Shown here: positions 6,791 to 63,000 of the stretch, one piece after another
Position numbering within the stretch: the stretch's first letter is position 1
Layout of the letters: each line of letters opens with the position of its first letter
Source of the DNA: Branchiostoma floridae
Lineage: Eukaryota > Chordata > Leptocardii > Amphioxiformes > Branchiostomatidae
Direction: 5' to 3'
DNA: 64,000 nt
NCBI RefSeq assembly: GCF_000003815.2
Contig: NC_049980.1
Span: 29,091,494 to 29,155,493, forward strand
Program-made: the position numbers and the translations under genes
The notes under the pieces: generated by a model
Databases searched by the model: none
What the model was told of the DNA's origin: nothing
Seen by the model: the letters and a program-made list of their open reading frames with translations, nothing else

Positions 6791-7938
6791 GAGGGTCTGC
6801 ATGGGGGGTCCTGACAACGCTTTACGCTAAATTCGGGACGGTCGACAACGCTTTACGTTAAATTCACGAAGGCCGGCAACGTTTTACGCTAAATTCAGAA
6901 AGGCTGACAACGGTTTACGCTAAATTCTGGAAGGCTGGCAACACTCGACAGAGGCGGGGGCGTGCTCCGCAAGAAAGATTGAAATTTTGAGTCTCTGAAA
7001 CACTATTCCCTGCATTTTGAAGGGAAATTTTCGCTGGCAGACAAAGCTAAGTTAAATGGCATATCTAATTAAAGAGTCCCAGGGGTTCAGCGTAAGCTTT
7101 TGAGGGTGACGCCAGCCAACTTATTTTGCCATGTCGAGCGCCGAAGGAAAGTCCGGGAAAATTTTGAAACCCTGCCCCCCTGAAACGCCATTTTCTGAGT
7201 TTTTTTGGCTATTATAGAAAAGTAAGTGAAATTACATTTTTATCAGTAAAAAATCACATCCCCCAGCCATGATACATATTTTTACGAAGTCGATGACAGA
7301 AGGTGAATAGAGTGGCAAAGGAGATCCGACGAAATTTTGAAATCTTGACCCTCTATAAAACTATATTTCGTGCATTTTGATGGGCAAATTTCTATTAGCA
7401 AAACAGGTCTTTGAGGTTGACACATCCCCGACATATTTTCAGAATTTCGAGTGCCAAAGGCGCGAGGCGGCACAAGGAGGACCATGGAAATTTTGAAATC
7501 TTGACCCTCTAAAATGATATTTCCTGCATTCTGAGGGGCAAATTTTGCTGGCAGACTAAGCTAACTTCAATGACATTTCTATTTGCAAAAAAAAGGTTTT
7601 TGAGGGAATACACCATATTTTTTACCATGTCGGTGACCGAAGGTGAAAGGAGTCGCAAGTGAGGTCCGGCGAAATTTTGAAATCTTGATCCTCTGAAACG
7701 CAATTTCCTGTGTTTTGAAGGACTAAATTTACTGGTAGACTACTTTTCGACTTACGAAATTTGGGAGGCCAGGCTACGCTTTACGTGAAATTTTTAGGCT
7801 AGATTACGCCTTACGTGAAATACACTGGCTACGCTTTACGGTAAATTTTCCATCCTCACTACGAATTACGTGAAATAAAATAGCTTACCCTACGAATTAC
7901 GGGAAAAGAGCATGCAGAAAAAGAGCATGCAGACCCTC
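6791..7938. mobile_element. Transposon-like element with short TIRs and subterminal repeats
   Basis: The left end GAGGGTCTGCATG (6791-6803) is the exact inverted copy of 7926-7938. Inside each end is a set of short direct repeats of about 30 bp, around acgctttacgctaaattc on the left (four units, 6822-6940) and acgctttacgtgaaat on the right (about five units, 7770-7910). The middle (6985-7740) consists of about five diverged monomers of 150-190 bp. Each carries a ctctgaaacgccatttcctg-like block and a gcaaattttgctgg-like block. The same monomer occurs in the element at 61363-61922. No target duplication is obvious. No gene was found in it. Confidence 0.65.
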
Positions 7939-11300: not shown

Positions 11301-14300
11301 TCAAGCTATGAAGAGTTGCTGAGAGATGAGAGGACGTTGACCCAAGAGGTCACTGCCCTTGAGAAGAAGATGGACGCCTGGGCACAGGGTCCTGCGGGGG
11401 TTGCTATGGAAACCAAAGGTGCTAAAACCAAAAACCTGTCTGTCAAAAACAATGTCATGAAGGATCTTCCACCAGAAGTTGCTGCATTTGAGGTGAGTTT
11501 TCCTGTTTGTAGTACATGTAATTCTTGGATTAGAATGCTTGTGTAAGTCTTAGTGTACAATGTAAACCTGTAAATAAAGGAAGGATACACGGTATGAACA
11601 CAATTCCGCAACAGTTGCTGAGTAGGAAAGACTTTGAGTGCTTTGTGAATGTGTGTTTAGTTATTGCATACCTCATTCCAAGCCAGGAGCCCAAATAGGA
11701 ACTGTTGCATTGTCATAAATTTGATGCAGTTCTTATAAGAAGCATGAATGGATGTTGTGTAGTTAGCAACGTTTTTTTTATTGATTAAAGATTGTTTGAG
11801 AAGACTGGTTTATTCTGTTTCTGTTTTCAGACTTTAAGTATATTGTGTACAATGTATGTTTCTTTTTGTTCCAGAGATTCTTGGCTCAAACTGGTGGGCA
11901 TCAAGGTGGATGGGACGACTATGATCACCAGGCATTCCTCAAAACTAGGACCAAGTTCAGGGTAAATAAACATCTCTGTGTTTGACCCAATCGTCTTTTT
12001 TCTAGACTTTTGACAACTCCCTAAAAGTTTTTTCCTCTCATTTTAATCTAAAAATACAACCCACAAGCCTTCAATGCGAATGTTATCTCTGTCAACTTTC
12101 TTCAAGCCAGAAGTGGTCTCTTGCATTGCGCAATGTTGTTATAAAAACACAGAAACTTACATGTATATGCAGTACTTTCCATGTATATTACAAAACTTTG
12201 CATGACTTTGCTGCAACAAACATTTTTAGAATTAATGCCAGTCACCAAAGTATACTTGTCACTTGTGTGTTGTGTGTGTCCAGTATGTTGCCTGTATGTT
12301 CCAGGGTAAGGCTGCCTTTCTTGACGAGGCTGTGCGTGCCTGCCCAGGGAGGACTATAGGAAACGTAAGGCAGCACGAGAGTTGGTACCAGGAGTATACA
12401 ACGCTCAAGGAGAGAAAGAAGGAGGCCATAGCCAACTGGAGAAAAAAGAAAGAGGTTTTGTGTTCTGTTGTTTTCTCTTATGTGCCACATGCATTTCTGA
12501 ATGCATACAGCTGTATGAATGCATTTAACAGCGTTATCAATAGAATTAAGGTTAAGAATATTAACTGAATTTTTGTGTCAGTTATCTGACAGTTTGAAAA
12601 CTTTGAATCCTGTAACCTACAAGATATTGGTGAAAAGAAGTTTTGTCAAAAGTAATGCTTTAGTGATAATGTAAAGACATTCAAATCATTGCTCAAATTT
12701 TTCTCTTCAAAGTTGACAAAACTTTGGATTCTATAAACCTTAACATATTAATTGAAAAGATTGTTTAGCCACAGCAATCCTGTAGTGATAATCATTGTGT
12801 TAAAATTGCAATTTTTTTCTCTCATAGACAGAAAAAGAGGATCTGCTGAAGCAGGCTGATGAGGACAGCAGCAGTGATGATGAAGAGATGCTGACAGCCA
12901 GGAGTAAACAGATGGAGCAGGAGAGGGAGGAGAAGAGGAAACAGCTCAATGCCTGGAAGGTGAGGGTGAAGGGAGGAATGTGATGTTACCATTGATGACA
13001 GGGCTCATAATGAATTTCTTAGAGTAGTGCACAACATAAAATAAAGTGGAACCTAATGGCAAATAGTACTGCCTTTATTCAGGGCTTCAATCTAAAGTAG
13101 TACCTTTATGCAGTTAACCATACACCGATATCCAGGTGCACTCACAGTCAAAAATTAAGTGTACAGCTGCTCTAATTTTGTTGTCCAAAAGCACATGATT
13201 GTGTAACCAGTATTTTTCAACACTGTATGCCTCAACACCCTTCTTTCATTTGTTGTATACAATTCTTTCCCTTATGTTTTCTAAGTTTCAATATCTGTAG
13301 GGTTTCCTACTTGTTCATCTTGAAATGTCTATTAACAATTGCTCAAAAATGTTTGCCAACATAGTAAAAGGACAAACTTTCTGAATGCACTTCCACAGGT
13401 GCAGAAAGAGCTACAAAGGGCCCAAGATGAGGAAAGAAAATTGAAGGAGGAACTCTCCAAAGCCAAGCAGCAAGAGAAGGAAAGAGAGAGACAGGTGTGG
13501 TTTTTTCGTGTGTTCATGAATTTGGGCTATGCCATGAAAAAGGTGTTTGTTCTATCAGAATCACACAAATGTTTCTTGGCAGTTCCCAAGTTTCTTTTGA
13601 TTACTTGTCTATTAGTATTACATGACACTTTCGAACACGCATTTCCAATGTATTACAACTATCTTAAGATGTCACTTTCCTTAAGCACTACAAAAACCTT
13701 CATACCACATGAGTCCTGCAAAACAACATGAATTTACAGTATATTCAATTGTTCACAGGCACTCAAATATTTCAAATTGTCATCCCATAGATCCAAGAGG
13801 ACTCTTCCTAGATTATGACAGTTTGATGTACCATATAGTGATGTGCCAGATAGTGAGTGTAAGATGATTGATGATGTACATGTACACACAGTTGTGAACT
13901 TTGCCTTCCACAGTTCCACTAGAAAGTCATTGTGTGCCCATGTTGTAGGCTGCTGCGATGATGTACCGGATAGTATATGTACCGGAGTGTAAGTTGATTA
14001 GATGGCAATGTTCACAATGGTGTGTACATCACAGTTCCACTTGAACACTCTCTGCCCATGTTGTAGGCTGCAGTGAGAGATTGTGTAAACACAGGCTGAT
14101 TCTGTGCCCATGTTGTAGGCTGCTGTGAGAGATTGTGTAAACACAGGTTAATTCTGTGCCCATGTTGTAGGCTGCTGTGAGAGATTGTGTAAACACAGGC
14201 TAATTCTGTGTCCATGTGTAGGCTGCAGTGAGAGCCCAGGTGGAGGAGTACAGGAGGCAGAGACAGGAGGAGGAGGAGGAGCAGAGGAGGGAGCAGGAGG

Positions 14301-49823: not shown

Positions 49824-52800
49824 ATGGAAGCTGTGAAGAAGAAGCTGGCGAATCTGCGGCAAGAGGCCGAACTCGCCAAGGAAAAGTGCGAAGAAGCCGA
49901 GAACGCCAGGAAAGAGGCAGAAGACCGGGCGGAACAGGTAAGATACGAGGGTTCTTCAAAACGTTACCCCATTGGTTTTATATGTACCTTTTTGGTGGGC
50001 AGTGAAAAGCTAATATTCGGATCAACTTTAACTGCTGAGTTTTGGGAAATATGTAGGGCATGAGTGAGGTCGACGAGCACCCTAAAGACAATGACATCAA
50101 CCAATCCAAAATCTCATAAAAAGTTCAAAAATCGTCCCGGATGCCTCGCTAAATTGAAGAACAGCTTCCAGGGACTCACGAACGTCGGTCGAGCTGACGA
50201 AAAACGTAATCGCCGCGTTCTTCGGCCGAAAATGTCCAACACGTCGGCAGAGCTAAATTCTTGATTTGGAAAGGGGGCTTAATTGCATCTACAACCACGA
50301 ACATATGTTACAACCCTTTTCCTTGTATAACCGCGCTGTTTTATCTAACGATACCTGTAGGCCGAGAATGACATCGAGAGCTTGAGGAGAAAGATGCAGC
50401 TGCTTGAAGCGGACTTGGACACCGCGGAGACCAGCCTCAAGGAAACCAACGAGAGAAACCAGGAACTAGAGTCAAGGCTCGACGAGGCCGAAAGGTGTGT
50501 GTAAAAACATTCAAGTAACGTTAAATGAAATCAGGCTGTTGTCATAAAAACCAATACCACTATCATTGTTGCTTTGACTTTATTCAATTTGCAACAGGTG
50601 CAATACAATGTGCACTAGGCAGCTAACTTGCTGATATTGGGATAACATATACATTGTCTTTGTTTTCCACCAGGTCAAGACAAGCACTAGAGCACAGGAG
50701 CACCACAGAGGACGACAAGGTACGGCATAACTCACAGTTGCCACAAACTGCGAATTGAATCAGGAAGGCATAACATGTACATGTACATGTACTCCTCTAT
50801 CTGGAGCAAAGAATCTGTCAAAGATTTTTACCCCAAATACGTCAAAAGATTAGTGCACTTGATTCTGCTAGTTTTGCTCATGACATCCTATCACAGCCAT
50901 TTACATGTAGCAATATTCAAAATAGATTCCCTCACATATGAGTAGCACTGAAAAATTCATATTCCTCATACGTTTTGACATACCGACCATAGTGAGATGA
51001 ACCATATATTTTACCAATATCAAGAGGCGTGAAGACGCCGATCCTACATACTAGACTACGATACCAACATGTAGATGTTTACAAGCATGACCTAGCATGT
51101 TGTGGTCTGTAGTTTAGTTAGCTCAGCTGGGCGAAATGTATAAAAGTATCCATTCATTATTGTCGTTCCGATGATGCTATGGTTCACTTGTTGAACTTTC
51201 CCTTCTTCCTTCTTTACACTCATTGCACAGAAAACACGAATAATCTGGTTTCCGAAATGGGAGACATTTGGGCATGGCTGCATGCTTTCAGCAAATCCAC
51301 TGAGACATAAAGTAAGGTAGTCAATCGTTGGAGTTAATTCCATTTTTCTCCTTTTCTTCTGGGATGCAGTCGTCGCAGATGGAAACTGATCTCAAGCTAG
51401 CGAAGGAGGCAAAAGAGGAGATGGAACTCAAGTATGAAGAGGTAATGTTTCTGTCATTTGTCATATTCTAATCGCCTTCAACGTTATGGCATACATATCA
51501 GTTCTGATAACTGGATTGGTGAAGATTTTTGGGTCATGTACTAGTATTTGATATATAAGAGAATACTGTCAAATGGTCGTGTATTTGGCATATTTCAGAA
51601 TGCTGCCAATGTATTTGGTATATTTGAGAATGCTGGCCATGTATTTGGTATATTTGAGGATGCTGGCCATGTATTTGGTATATTTGAGGATGCTGGCAAT
51701 GTATTTGGTATATTTGAGGATGCTGCCCATGTATTTGGTAAATTTGAGAATGCTGCCAATTGGTCATCTTTACTTTAACTTTCTTTCAGGTCAGTAGGAA
51801 ACTAGTCATGGCGGAACAGCAGCTGGATAATATGGAAGATAAATACAAAGAAGCTGAGCAGTAAGTTTGGTGAACGTTTTCTACATTCTAGATATATAGA
51901 ATCCAATACAAAATCCAAGCAGGACACCGCGAAGATGAAAGATTGCTTTATTTCTATTGGTTCGCTAATGGTAAAGAAATCTATGTACTAGTATTGTTAA
52001 AATTTGTCTTTGAATCGAAAATATCGGACGGACGTGATTATGTAATGTTGAATTGTACATAATTGTGTTTATTGTTCAGAACGGATGACCTCTGACCTCC
52101 TGCACAAGTCTTGAAAATCGGCCCTGGCCGAAGATGTATCAAGATCAAATAAAGGTCGAAAAAAAATGAAAAAGTGATATTTTACACGAACTCTTCAAAT
52201 TTCCACCGGGTGTCGTAATAACGACACATCAAAACATTGTTATAAAGGCCCTTCCAACATTTTCTTGAACACCTAAATATCTGAAGTGGCTATACCTCAG
52301 GATCGCTAATGATGCATCGGTAAATCATTGTTGTTGTTGTTTATCATGTGGCAGTATTATAGTATCTGGTGGAATTATGAGAGTTGAAGCCGTGACACTA
52401 AACATTAGAAACTTTCTCACGGCCATAAGATTGTTCGCAAGTATTTGCCCAAGCTCCTGTTTTACCCAAGAAAATGACGAAACCTGTCTTCCCTAGGCGA
52501 GTGAAGGCGTTGGAAGAGGAGTTACAGATCACAGGAGACCAGGTCAGGTCCTTGGAGTCCAGCCAGAACAGGGTGAGCAGTCAGTGCTGTTCTTGCACAT
52601 TAACGGAACACTTTATCACATATCAATCACATGCAGGGGATGAAAACAATGTGTTTCACACCCTGAATTACTATATTTATTAGAAATTCTTGAAGAATTA
52701 CAAACATACTAAAAACAAATAATGCACAAGATACAAGATGACTACTAGCAGCGCTGATTATGCACCTCCTGGAACGCGGCACGTAAAAGCCGTTGATAAC

Positions 52801-57041: not shown

Positions 57042-60000
57042 CTACTCCTTGTACATCTTTGTCTCCTGCAGCATGTTGACTTTTTGCAGTTTCAGAGGAT
57101 CGATCTTGTCAGCCGCCCAGACCTCGGACCGGGACGTGCTGGCGCTGACCTTGTTGGTCTTTTTCTTTTTCCTACAACAATACGTCAGTCTCTTCAACAA
57201 GTACTCCAGAAACTCCATGAAGGTGATGACGCTGGCACCCACAAATAGGCCGAGCTGGCCGCCAAGGCCGCCTGAAAAATAGGGGAAAACAAAAATTATT
57301 GAAAAATTTGATATTTCGCGTAGTATTATTAGCGTCAAAAATAGAGTAACAGCGTCAAAAATAGAAATGTAATGTACCCATGCACCCTCATGCTACTTCA
57401 TACTTTACTCTGACAAGTTCTTGTTCATATTAAAGGCCATGTTGATTTGATTATATGGATGGATCAATTTTCGGCCGTGTCCAAAGGAAAAAGTTTTCAA
57501 CCATATCAAAATCGTACAAAGCAGCTGCAAAATGAGCAAAATATGCGCAAATTGCGAGAAAAATATTGGAAAGCGATATTTTGATCAGAATTTCATAGGA
57601 TTCCAATATCAATTCCAAAGTAAAAGAAGATGTAAGAAAATGAAAATTATCAATCTGTCATACGATATATCATACTTAACATATTAAGTCATCTTCCTAA
57701 CCACATGGATTTCATAATGACTTTTTTTTCAAATTGTTTTATCCACATGGACGCTCGCATCAGTTTCGGGGTGCCCAGCTGATGGCATCAACATATGATC
57801 CAAGATGGCGGATCGAAATTGATATCTAAAATACATATGACGTCATTTTATAACGTGGTGACTTACTGAGCAGGTCTCCCGGAGTCATGGCCTTCTTCTG
57901 GGTGATCTGTTCGAAGTTCAGCTCCTCGTAGAACACGTCAATAGAAGCCCAGTTGTTCCTGGAAACGTGGTCGCACATGTTAGAATCGCAGGTCAACCAC
58001 GAGTGTTGTTTCTGTTAGGTAGTTGGTTGGTTGGTTAATCAAAGTAAGTTAGTTAGTTAGGTACTTAGTTAGTTACTTTGTGAATTAATTGGTTAGTCAG
58101 TGGATTGATTACTTAGTTGGTTGCTTGGTTGGCTGGTTACTTATCATTCAGCTAGTTATCATTCGATAATTCATTCGTTCGTTCGTTAGTTTGTGACTTT
58201 GTTTGTTAGTTTGTTAGTCGGCATAAGCGATGATTGTATCGTTCCAATCTGCGAGTTTCCAACTACTCATGCCACCTTTCTACTACTAGATGACAAGCGT
58301 TGAGCGACCTTTGAGCTATAAAAATTATGACCCTTGATTTTATACCCTGAGAGACGATGACGCACGATCTAAAAATTGGATTTTAGAGATCACAAAACGT
58401 ATAGAAATTTGTTCTTCGATTAAGAAATATTTTGAGCGACCTCTGGTCGTTTAGCGGTGAAAAGAAGGGCGCTCTAGGGGATGTGTCTGTACACAGTGGT
58501 AAGTAGGGTTTAGATAGTAAAAGTAGTCATGTACGTAACGTACTGCATGTACGTCATGTTGACGTTATTCTCTTGCCCAAGGTACACCTCCACGATATGG
58601 TTCGGCCAACCGGCGTACGACACGAAGTAGTCAAACGTCTGGATCCGGCAGGGTGTGGGGCAGTCGCACGCCAGGGCTCCGGTCGTGATCTGGTCTGATG
58701 AGGAAACAACGTAGGCAACAGTCAAGAAGATTCACCTTCAGCGCTGCTTTACTTGTTTCATGATTGAAAGTTTGTTTGCAATTTCATGCCCGGAGACTAA
58801 TTGCAAGTACACGTACAAGTACATGTACATGGTGGAAGCATAGGAAACATACATAAATGGTGCTAAAAATGGTAAAAAGATGAACTAAAATCTTAGTTTT
58901 GTCGATTTCTAAATAGGTTGAATATTGAATATATTGATTTCATATTGGTACTAGGTTGGTTTCATCACAACCCCCTTCAGCCATGAACTGTTTGCATTCT
59001 TACGTTGGTTAATTTTACTTTAATCGTTAAGAGATGCCAAGTTTACCTTTGACTCCGAGGACACAGTCGACGATCTGCTGAGGTTCACAATAGGTCAGGT
59101 TCCCTGGAAAAAGAATGATCAAAGTTACTTGTGCTCGTTGCTGTTGTTGTTGTTGTTGTTGTGATATAGGGGTGGTAGTCGGAGGATAGTACTGGTGGTA
59201 GATGTGAAAAGAGAGAAGGGAAGAGAGAGAGAAAAAAAGAGACAGGGAGACATAGAGTGAGAGCAAAAAATAGAGAAGGGGAGAGTGAGAGACAGAATTT
59301 CTGTTAAAGACATGGGAGCTCCAGTGATATGCAGAGAGAGACAGAGATGGGGCAAAATGAGACAGGGTGAGAGTGACAGAGATAAAAAGGGAAAGACGCA
59401 GAGAGAAAGAGAGAGAGAGAGAGAATTTACATTGAAGAGAAGGCTGTTCATGACTGACCTGGGAGCTCCAGTGCCGTGCAGCCACACTCTCTCTCCACCC
59501 ATTTAGCCATACACTCCATCAGACAGCCGGTCAGGGTGTAGGTGTCGTAGTACTCCAGATCCAGGTCCTTACACAGGCCCCATGGCGGGATTTCATTCTG
59601 ATACTGTTGGGACGATCAAATGTAAGCAAAATTATAGTTTTTGCATTTTGCAAGTTTGAAAACTTTATAGATGATAGGCGTACAGCGATCATCAATGTTT
59701 ATGTTCCTTGTCTTTCAGCATGGCTATTTTTTTCTGACGGTATGGTCACCTTCGTCTGAGGGTCGACGTACGATGATGAAGGCGTTTAAGTTTTAATCAG
59801 GCTGTGATTGAACCAATCGCCGATAAGGATCTAAGGCAATCTGTGAGATGCCGATGAATAAGTGAGATGCCGATGTACGCGTGGAGACTTACCGTAACCT
59901 GTGAGATACCGATATAAGCGTGGAGGCTTACCGTAACCTGTGAGATGCCGATGTAAGCATGGAGACTTACCGTAACCTGTGAGATACCGATATAAGCGTG

Positions 60001-63000
60001 GAGGCTTACCGTAACCTGTGAGATGCCGATGTAAGCGTGGAGACTTACCGTAACCTGTGAGATACCGATATAAGCGTGGAGCCTTACCGTAACCTGTGAG
60101 ATGCCGATGTAAGCGTGGAGACTTACCGTAAGCTGTGAGATGCCGATATAAGCGTGGAGCCTTACCGTAACCTGTGAGATGCCGATGTAAGCGTGGAGAC
60201 TTACCGTAACCTGTGAGATACCGATGTAAGCGTGGAGCCTTACCGTAACCTGTGAGATACCGATATAAGCGTGGAGCCTTACCGTAAGCTGTGAGATGCC
60301 GATATAAGCGTGGAGACTTACCGTAACCTGTGAGATACCGATGTAAGCGTGGAGACTTACCGTAACCTGTGAGATGCCGATATAAGCGTGGAGGCTTACC
60401 GTAACCTGCGAGATGCCGATATAAGCGTGGAGACTTACCGTAACCTGCGAGATGCCGATATAAGCGTGGAGACTTACCGTAACCTGTGAGATGCCGATGT
60501 AAGCGTGGCTGCCGGGCCCGATGGGGATCCCCTGGATGTCCATCTTGGCGGGCTCGCCTTGCGGGTGGATGTGCACTTTCACGCCGACGTCTGTCGTCCC
60601 GCCCGTGTCAGGGTTCTCCGTGTAGAAGGCCTGGCGAAAAAAATGTATTGCATGTCAAACACGCGTATGTAGCATAAAAATACCTTATCACAATAATGGT
60701 TATTATTATTTTTTTTTTTTACAACATAGTTTGTTACTCTGTGACGGAGGGTACAGTAACCTCCGACAACAGAGTATTGCTGTTGTCCAATGTCCGGGTT
60801 CTCCGTGTAGAAGGCATGGCGAAATAATAAATCCTACCAGATTCTGCGGTGACATCTACAAGTGTAAACTGCTTGAAGGGGAGACTGGATAACCACATTC
60901 GATTACATAGTGTGTATTACTGTAACTACAGAGCTCTGGATGACCAAAGCTACCTGGAATGACAGTGACCTGAAATTTAAGTGTGGCCTAATAAATAGTT
61001 GGAACTGGACGTTCCTACCTGCGCCAGAAGAACTCTACTCTACTAGTACTCCACTCTACTAGGGGTTGCATGTGAACACACATTCGTTAGGATGCATGCG
61101 AATGACATACGTGACTGCACCCTTAGCAGTGACAGTAGATAGGTAGAGATGCAAATTAAATTTGCACCGAAAGGGCAGATATTACAACATCACTTCACCC
61201 CACCCTATAGACAGCGGGTTCACCCTATGGTTGACCCAATAAGTTAGAATTTATGAATAGCTCTTAGAGTAGCATAGACACATGATATACTGTTTTAGAT
61301 CATTTGCCTGTCCTTTCCTGTTGCCTTCAAACCCTCGACCAAGAATCTGCGATTAAGGTGTTGATTGCATGCCCGTAGCCAGGATTTCGGTTGGGGGGGG
61401 GGTTCTTTTTAGTAAATGTGGGACCATCGAGCGCCGCAGGCGCGAGACTCACGCCGAAGGCGTGAGGTACCTAGGGGGGTCCGGGGGCATGCTCCCCCGG
61501 AAAAAAATGAAATTTTGACCCTCTGAAACGCCATTTCCTGCATTTTGACCGTCAAAAATCGCTTGCGAAGTTTAATGGAATTTCTATTAAAGGACAAGGC
61601 TTTGAGGCCAACTCCCTCGACATATTTTCACCATGTCCCACACCAAAGGCGTGAGGCGTCGCAATGGAGGTCCGGGGAAATTTTGAAATCTGGACCCTCT
61701 GAAAAGCCATTTCCTGCACTTTCTGGGGCAAATTTTGCTGATAGACTTACTACGATTGGCTGAAATGTCTATCAAGGAAAAATGCAAATCAGTCATGCCT
61801 TTGAAAAAAAAATCTTGGACATGAAAAAGTGGACCTTCGATCCTGAAAAAGCGGACCTTTTGAGCGAGTGGGGGGGTTCTTCCGAACCCCCCGAACCCCC
61901 CCCTGGCTACGGGCATGGATTGATTCAATTAATCATGGCCCTGTTGCCCATTGCTGACGAGGCACAGGGTGCAACTGCCTCATACCACCGATAGGAGGCG
62001 TGATTGCTCTATTTCAATAACTATCTTTGTAAGGCAGCCGCAACTTAAAAACACGGGAGAAACGAAAAGTAAAACTACACAAGAGGTAAAGAGAATAGTC
62101 GTGGGCCTATTTGTGTATATTTTTACGTATACATTTCTATTTTTTTCGTTTCCACAACAAACATCCCTGCCGAGTAGTTTGGAAATGTGATGTAGGTCCA
62201 ATACAACGGGGTGTTTCCTAGTACAGTTCAGAACATAACAGGACAGAACAGAGCAGAACAGAACCAGAACCAGAAGCAGTACTTACCTCGTGCACGTCCA
62301 GGACCAGGTGCAGCCCGTTGCCCTGCCCCGGGATGATCTGCTGCAGAGGTTCTCCTGAAGTCTTCTGGTTGAAGACGTAACAGTTCCCGTACTCCCCGAA
62401 CACGTGCGTGAAGTTCTGGGTATGTATATGGAATTTTGTTAGACTAAGAGGGAGATGGGAAGATCAGGTCTTCAACACACTCCGGGAGCTGGGGGTCCCC
62501 AGATCCGACTGGACTGTCCACGCCCAATGTAGAACAACGTGGCGAGAACTGTCTGAACTGTCTGTAGCCGCCACGCATCAACATATGATGCATGCGAACG
62601 ATTGATTGAAGCATGGTTACGCATGGCACTGAACAAATCATTTTCAAATTCTGGTCACAAAGATCCCCAACGCAACAAACCGATATCACGAAACCGATTG
62701 TTACGGCGCTCTACCCGCGCTCTCTCTGCAACCTCAAATTGGTCCCCTTTCCACTAGACGGCGATCGCAATGCGCTCTCACTGCGACCTAAATAGGATAT
62801 GTGGAACCTTTGATTTCATACTGGGTATATCATACAGCATGTAAGAGTGTGACTTACAGGTTAGAACGCGGTGGAATCGCCAAGGTCGCTATGGAAGCCT
62901 ACAGAGAGCGCCATAGTCGTCAAGCTCGCCATCACCTTCTCGACTGTTTTGAATCGGGTCAAAATAAGTAAACGCAGAAGACTGACGTAGGTCACGTACC

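Follow-up and report, generated by a model that had tools for sequence, protein, structure and literature searches.

In amphioxus, minisatellites that duplicate exon-intron boundaries are known as mirages (PMC3087553, PMC3902484). According to the first of these reports (PMC3087553), mirages are carried by globin genes, with Adh3 and other loci also cited, their repeat number varies among haplotypes, and the Adh3 mirage is somatically unstable; reverse transcription polymerase chain reaction on the globin genes, together with the Adh3 data, suggested that regular splicing is undisturbed by these repeats. The second report (PMC3902484) cites the Adh and troponin C mirages as being without aberrant mRNAs and describes a PGBD5 mirage for which complementary DNA backs the N-terminal part only, and whose copy numbers differ between two assemblies (2 versus 7 and 3 versus 6). 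Here we analysed a stretch of 64,000 nucleotides from Branchiostoma floridae (NC_049980.1, positions 29,091,494 to 29,155,493; hereafter the window), in which an exon of an ASIC-like channel gene is followed by sixteen splice donors in tandem. This array would be a real and striking example of the mirage type already known from amphioxus. In a literature search by title and abstract start, no paper titled for this 39-bp array was found.

The array lies on the minus strand (59892..60477) and contains 16 GTAAG donors, the first G of which falls at 60477, 60438 and so on down to 59892, with all 15 spacings being exactly 39 bp. Run on the window, Tandem Repeats Finder (TRF) reported 39 bp x 16.6 copies with 92% matches and 0% indels. 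Each unit consists of 30 bases matching the last 30 of the exon plus 9 intronic bases from the donor on (GTAAGTCTC); the exon itself (60478..60630, minus strand) ends in CAC GCT TAC ATC GGC ATC TCA CAG GTT ACG, directly followed by GTAAGTCTC. The frame of the exon (GCC TTC TAC...) is open across every 39-bp unit down to 59800, and the first in-frame stop past the array, if no donor were used, is a TGA at 59797..59799. Units 1-15 translate as VSLHAYIGISQVT, S/R and V/L being the only replacements, while unit 16, the rest of which (59854..59891) forms the distal edge of the array, agrees over 31 bases, save for an additional change at column 15, before diverging. With 15 complete units beyond the exon, donor k would add 13(k-1) residues, up to a maximum insert of 195 residues (15 x 13). 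The direct count and TRF thus bear out what the sequence-only reading had described, namely sixteen tandem GTAAG at 39-bp spacing in a single open frame, a unit made of the last 30 coding bases plus GTAAG, and distal donors that would add multiples of 13 residues without a frame change. With a Shapiro-Senapathy-type matrix, the donors scored nearly equally (nine at 91.1, seven at 86.3 to 86.5).

Like the Adh3, globin (BflGb6 and BflGb9), troponin C and PGBD5 mirages, the array is a tandem duplication of a boundary with splice signals in many units. Each unit spans the exon-intron boundary, GTAAG is present in 16 of 16 units, and by inspection a homogenised interior, the units of which have variants in common, is bordered by a divergent edge unit. 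The 39-bp period falls within the 10-72 bp quoted for the Adh3 mirage. What may set this array apart are its sixteen donors in one unbroken frame and its variation mostly at third codon positions. A search of the genome for the GFP family, members of which occur in amphioxus, gave 0 matches; as the controls of this search were also silent, it does not demonstrate absence.

Four joined exons of the host gene matched ASIC1 chains in the PDB (2.4e-30) and the Pfam family ASC (PF00858; 4.6e-33, 115.4 bits against a cut-off of 23.6), in agreement with the ASIC-like identity proposed earlier. This match places the predicted protein among the ASC (DEG/ENaC, ASIC-type) channels. The array-bearing exon (AFYTENPDTGG...GSHAYIGISQVT) comprises 51 codons and ends in phase 0, and the next exon (YQNEIPPWGLCKD...ALELPG; 59459..59603, minus strand) starts in phase 0 and ends in phase 1. 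When donor 1 (ACG/GTAAGT, the slash marking the boundary; 60473..60477, minus strand) was joined to 59603, the ASIC1 alignment crossed the junction without a gap, and use of this donor would therefore yield the conserved protein. Moreover, only one donor is present at this boundary in the two neighbouring paralogues L002 and L003. By this alignment and comparison, donor 1 is the putative ancestral 5' splice site. The junction sits 8 residues before the tryptophan of the PPWG motif. Both the next exon (YQNEIPPWG...) and the insertion point ahead of IPPWG were correctly placed by the sequence-only reading. The PPWG tryptophan is probably the counterpart of mouse ASIC1a Trp287, which contacts the first transmembrane segment (TM1) and the mutation of which (W287G) impairs folding, trafficking and gating (PMC3203923).

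We consider it likely that the array is a mirage derived from duplication of the exon end, in which donor 1 is used and the other 15 donors are intronic passenger sequence. A tandem duplication of the last 30 exonic and first 9 intronic bases of the ASIC-family exon would have founded the array, and unequal exchange or slippage, together with conversion between its units, probably expanded it to 16 donors. The spliceosome would take the first, exon-abutting donor, producing a normal channel, and the remaining 15 donors would be removed as intron. The frame would be open because the unit is stop-free and its length happens to divide by 3. In line with this reading, an array at this boundary is absent from the two neighbouring paralogues with a single donor, and similar arrays are found elsewhere, including one with in-frame stops. 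The complete retention of GTAAG and of the frame had been regarded as notable, yet chance predicts it: the probability that none of the 7 variable columns falls on the 5 donor columns is P = 0.35, and the probability that 8 random changes create no stop is P = 0.71. Retention as a sign of function was rejected, since it is expected at this low divergence.

Related arrays are present in neighbouring ASIC-type paralogues. About 12 kb away, the gene that also contains L003 carries a 60-bp donor-side mirage (L007:8559-9742, G000:C2 ~29.164 Mb) with 20 GTTAGT donors, 60 bp apart save for one 47-bp interval, and another paralogue carries a 60-bp donor-side mirage with 3 donors (L008:9749-9932, G000:C2 ~29.175 Mb), a copy-number contrast of 20 versus 3 between the two. 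Both share gene family and repeat type with the host array; unlike it, they occupy the donor of the following exon (in L007, the donor corresponding to that of 59459..59603), hold in-frame stops in their units and show no third-position bias in their variation. An in-frame TAG was found in 18/18 full L007 units analysed (of 20; the unit of 47 bp and the edge unit at the end were left out), so that splicing from any donor beyond the first would yield a truncated protein. Provided that L007 is a functional gene, the persistence of donors in this stop-bearing array is the best available argument, albeit an indirect one, for use of the first donor. Taken with the known mirages and the reports of normal splicing at those of Adh3, globin and troponin C, the L007 stops favour that half of the sequence-only interpretation in which a neutral minisatellite has one donor in use; its other half, tuning of the channel by splice choice, would be the less well supported one. 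In addition, the paralogue L002 contains a 22-bp array (ATAGATGAAAGGTAGTACACCC; L002:662-1138, G000:C2, 29.185 Mb) with a weak donor-like GGTAGT in its units.

Similar arrays were also sought across the genome. The pattern GGTAAGT x3 at 25-55 bp spacing gave 292 + 1251 matches compared with 154 + 212 for the reversed pattern, the latter (366 matches) being the sole control; these are not counts of arrays, because one long array gives many matches. Among the matches listed, at least 14 array places were found on contigs C1 and C2 (a cluster at 28.24-28.25 Mb of C1 being counted once), of which 10 were examined, and several of these adjoin recognisable coding exons. The L027 exon matched dynein heavy chains (2.1e-07) and had no Pfam match. 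For the L035 exon, the Pfam family AAA_9 (dynein motor; 1.4e-05) was below cut-off, and an AAA+ ATPase chain (0.00079) and dynein heavy chain 6 (0.009) were also matched. The L047 exon matched TALPID3 (2.5e-05, below the Pfam cut-off), and the L050 exon had weak STI1/HOP and ubiquilin Pfam matches below cut-off, with no ubiquilin in a follow-up chain search. Exons at L048 and L054 had no Pfam match. At L035 (G000:C1, ~253.7-255.3 kb) a mirage was seen at both ends of the dynein heavy chain-like exon: the upstream end shows TTTCCATAG/GAACGACC x4, and from the exon end on there are 28 GTAAG with irregular spacing and a broken frame. A twin of the host array was seen at L048:281-1199 (G000:C1, from ~6,938,280), where 18 donors lie 54 bp apart and the frame, running on from the reading frame upstream, is open through 17 full units. 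It differs from the host array in that its gene is ABC-transporter-like by eye only and its phase bias is not significant. The L048 units also hold an acceptor-like CTACAG.

Several observations weigh against the view that only donor 1 is used and the remaining units are passengers. In classical studies of identical donors in duplicate, the intron-proximal copy was often preferred, and here this would be donor 16. Donor-bearing arrays were not in excess in 13 regions of 10 kb (one at the 5.0-Mb position of each of 13 contigs), where 1 of 14 arrays carried the donor (GTRAG) versus 2.7 expected by shuffling, a sample too small to estimate the frequency of mirages. Furthermore, 6 of the 7 variable columns of the host array are third codon positions (6, 12, 15, 18, 24 and 30), column 34 being a first position; this has P = 0.007 under equal rates, rising to at most 0.024 when transitions and CpG changes are strongly favoured. 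Only the first 31 columns of unit 16 were counted, and leaving this unit out gave 5/6 (P = 0.018). Six of 8 variants were synonymous, with P = 0.004 to 0.051 across the mutation models tried (CpG rates up to 10x, kappa up to 6). The stop-bearing L007 showed 2/11 third-position columns versus 6/7 in the host array (Fisher P = 0.013). Third positions accounted for 5/10 columns in the open array L048 (17/18 units used; P = 0.21 alone) and for 1/3 in the closed array L050, and pooling gave 11/17 for open versus 3/14 for closed arrays (Fisher P = 0.029). When L049 (4/9 columns in 12 units, one with a stop, its exon not established) was added, P was 0.046 with it as open and 0.053 as closed. The test left out L047 and L054 (period not divisible by 3), L027 and L035 (irregular), and L051, L052 and L053 (no exon assigned). 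The third-position bias suggests coding constraint in the array, but these P values are suggestive only, because several features had been examined first and the array was picked for its open frame. Finally, PMC3087553 itself points to a possible cryptic-site role for the repeated signals. Decay of CpG was rejected as the source of the bias, the column P staying at or below 0.024 when CpG rates were raised as far as 10x, and that of the synonymous count reaching up to 0.051; a count by hand placed half of the CpG bases of the consensus unit (6, or 8 if the TCG variant is included) at third positions and half elsewhere.

The bias might have been inherited: the variants would have arisen while the unit was the constrained end of a real exon and then been copied into an array that was never translated. 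We regard this as a tentative and somewhat doubtful refinement of the explanation in which donor 1 alone is used, with which it is compatible. It would account for the five third-position columns (of 6) that lie in the exon-derived part of the unit, and fits the sharing of variants among interior units, but it leaves the column at donor position +6 unexplained, and L007, which would be expected to behave alike, does not show the bias.

Alternatively, several donors could be used in frame, adding 0 to 195 residues in steps of 13, with repeat-number alleles shifting the range. HAYIGISQVT recurs in each insert, so that the fold could be kept by one copy, with the rest looped out. We judge this unlikely. 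The frame open across all units, the near-equal donor scores, the third-position bias (a point absent from the sequence-only reading) and the third-position columns of the second open array, L048, all speak for it. Yet the open frame and intact donors are chance-expected at this divergence, the L048 bias alone is not significant, and the insertion point adjoins a contact critical for gating and folding; several published mirages are reported with normal splicing, and the sister array L007 cannot work in this way. Were the array translated, it might act as a natural ruler: donor choice, among sixteen of nearly equal strength, and the repeat number of the allele would set the count of 13-residue copies of an ectodomain strand just before the contact between thumb and TM1; we consider this improbable. 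Recursive or micro-exon splicing within units (CAG/GTTACG/GTAAG) was rejected by eye, as the intron would be 33 nt long and without a pyrimidine tract.

It is very improbable that mis-assembly partly accounts for the copy number or for the array as such. The discordant PGBD5 copy numbers in the two assemblies provide a precedent, but the units of the host array differ from one another in a non-periodic order, the array edges are unique, and a genome search with the array returned a single full-length match, five others being partial.

Mirages provide natural experiments on spliceosomal choice when many donors are almost the same. Matched cases lie close together here: the host gene has 16 in-frame donors, and the stop-bearing arrays of the paralogues L007 and L008 have 20 and 3. 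Splicing from any later donor would alter protein length in the host gene but truncate the protein in L007 and L008. These matched arrays bear on the choice between first and last donor and on whether in-frame mirages feed new coding repeats or new introns into genes. If the host array were translated, other in-frame mirages of the genome would likewise supply coding repeats.

Other boundary duplications were seen in the window. A probable acceptor-side mirage found by TRF on the plus strand (14049..14234) consists of 3.6 copies of a 52-bp unit, ...gtag/GCTGCAGTGAGAG, the last of which by eye abuts a putative coding exon. This exon, at window position 14222, had no match in a Pfam search; it would encode a coiled-coil, and an older degenerate copy was seen by eye near 13930-13960. 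Two further TRF arrays were rejected as mirages, one (51580-51760) because it ends ~25 bases from a putative acceptor that lies outside the array and the other (6813-6942) because no exon is evident. On the minus strand, alignment showed that the acceptor side of the host exon also has a partial copy (60791..60827), which is degenerate, matches at 34/37 bases and no longer has the acceptor AG. The array-bearing exon is thus duplicated at both boundaries, with sixteen donors on one side and a single degenerate copy on the acceptor side.

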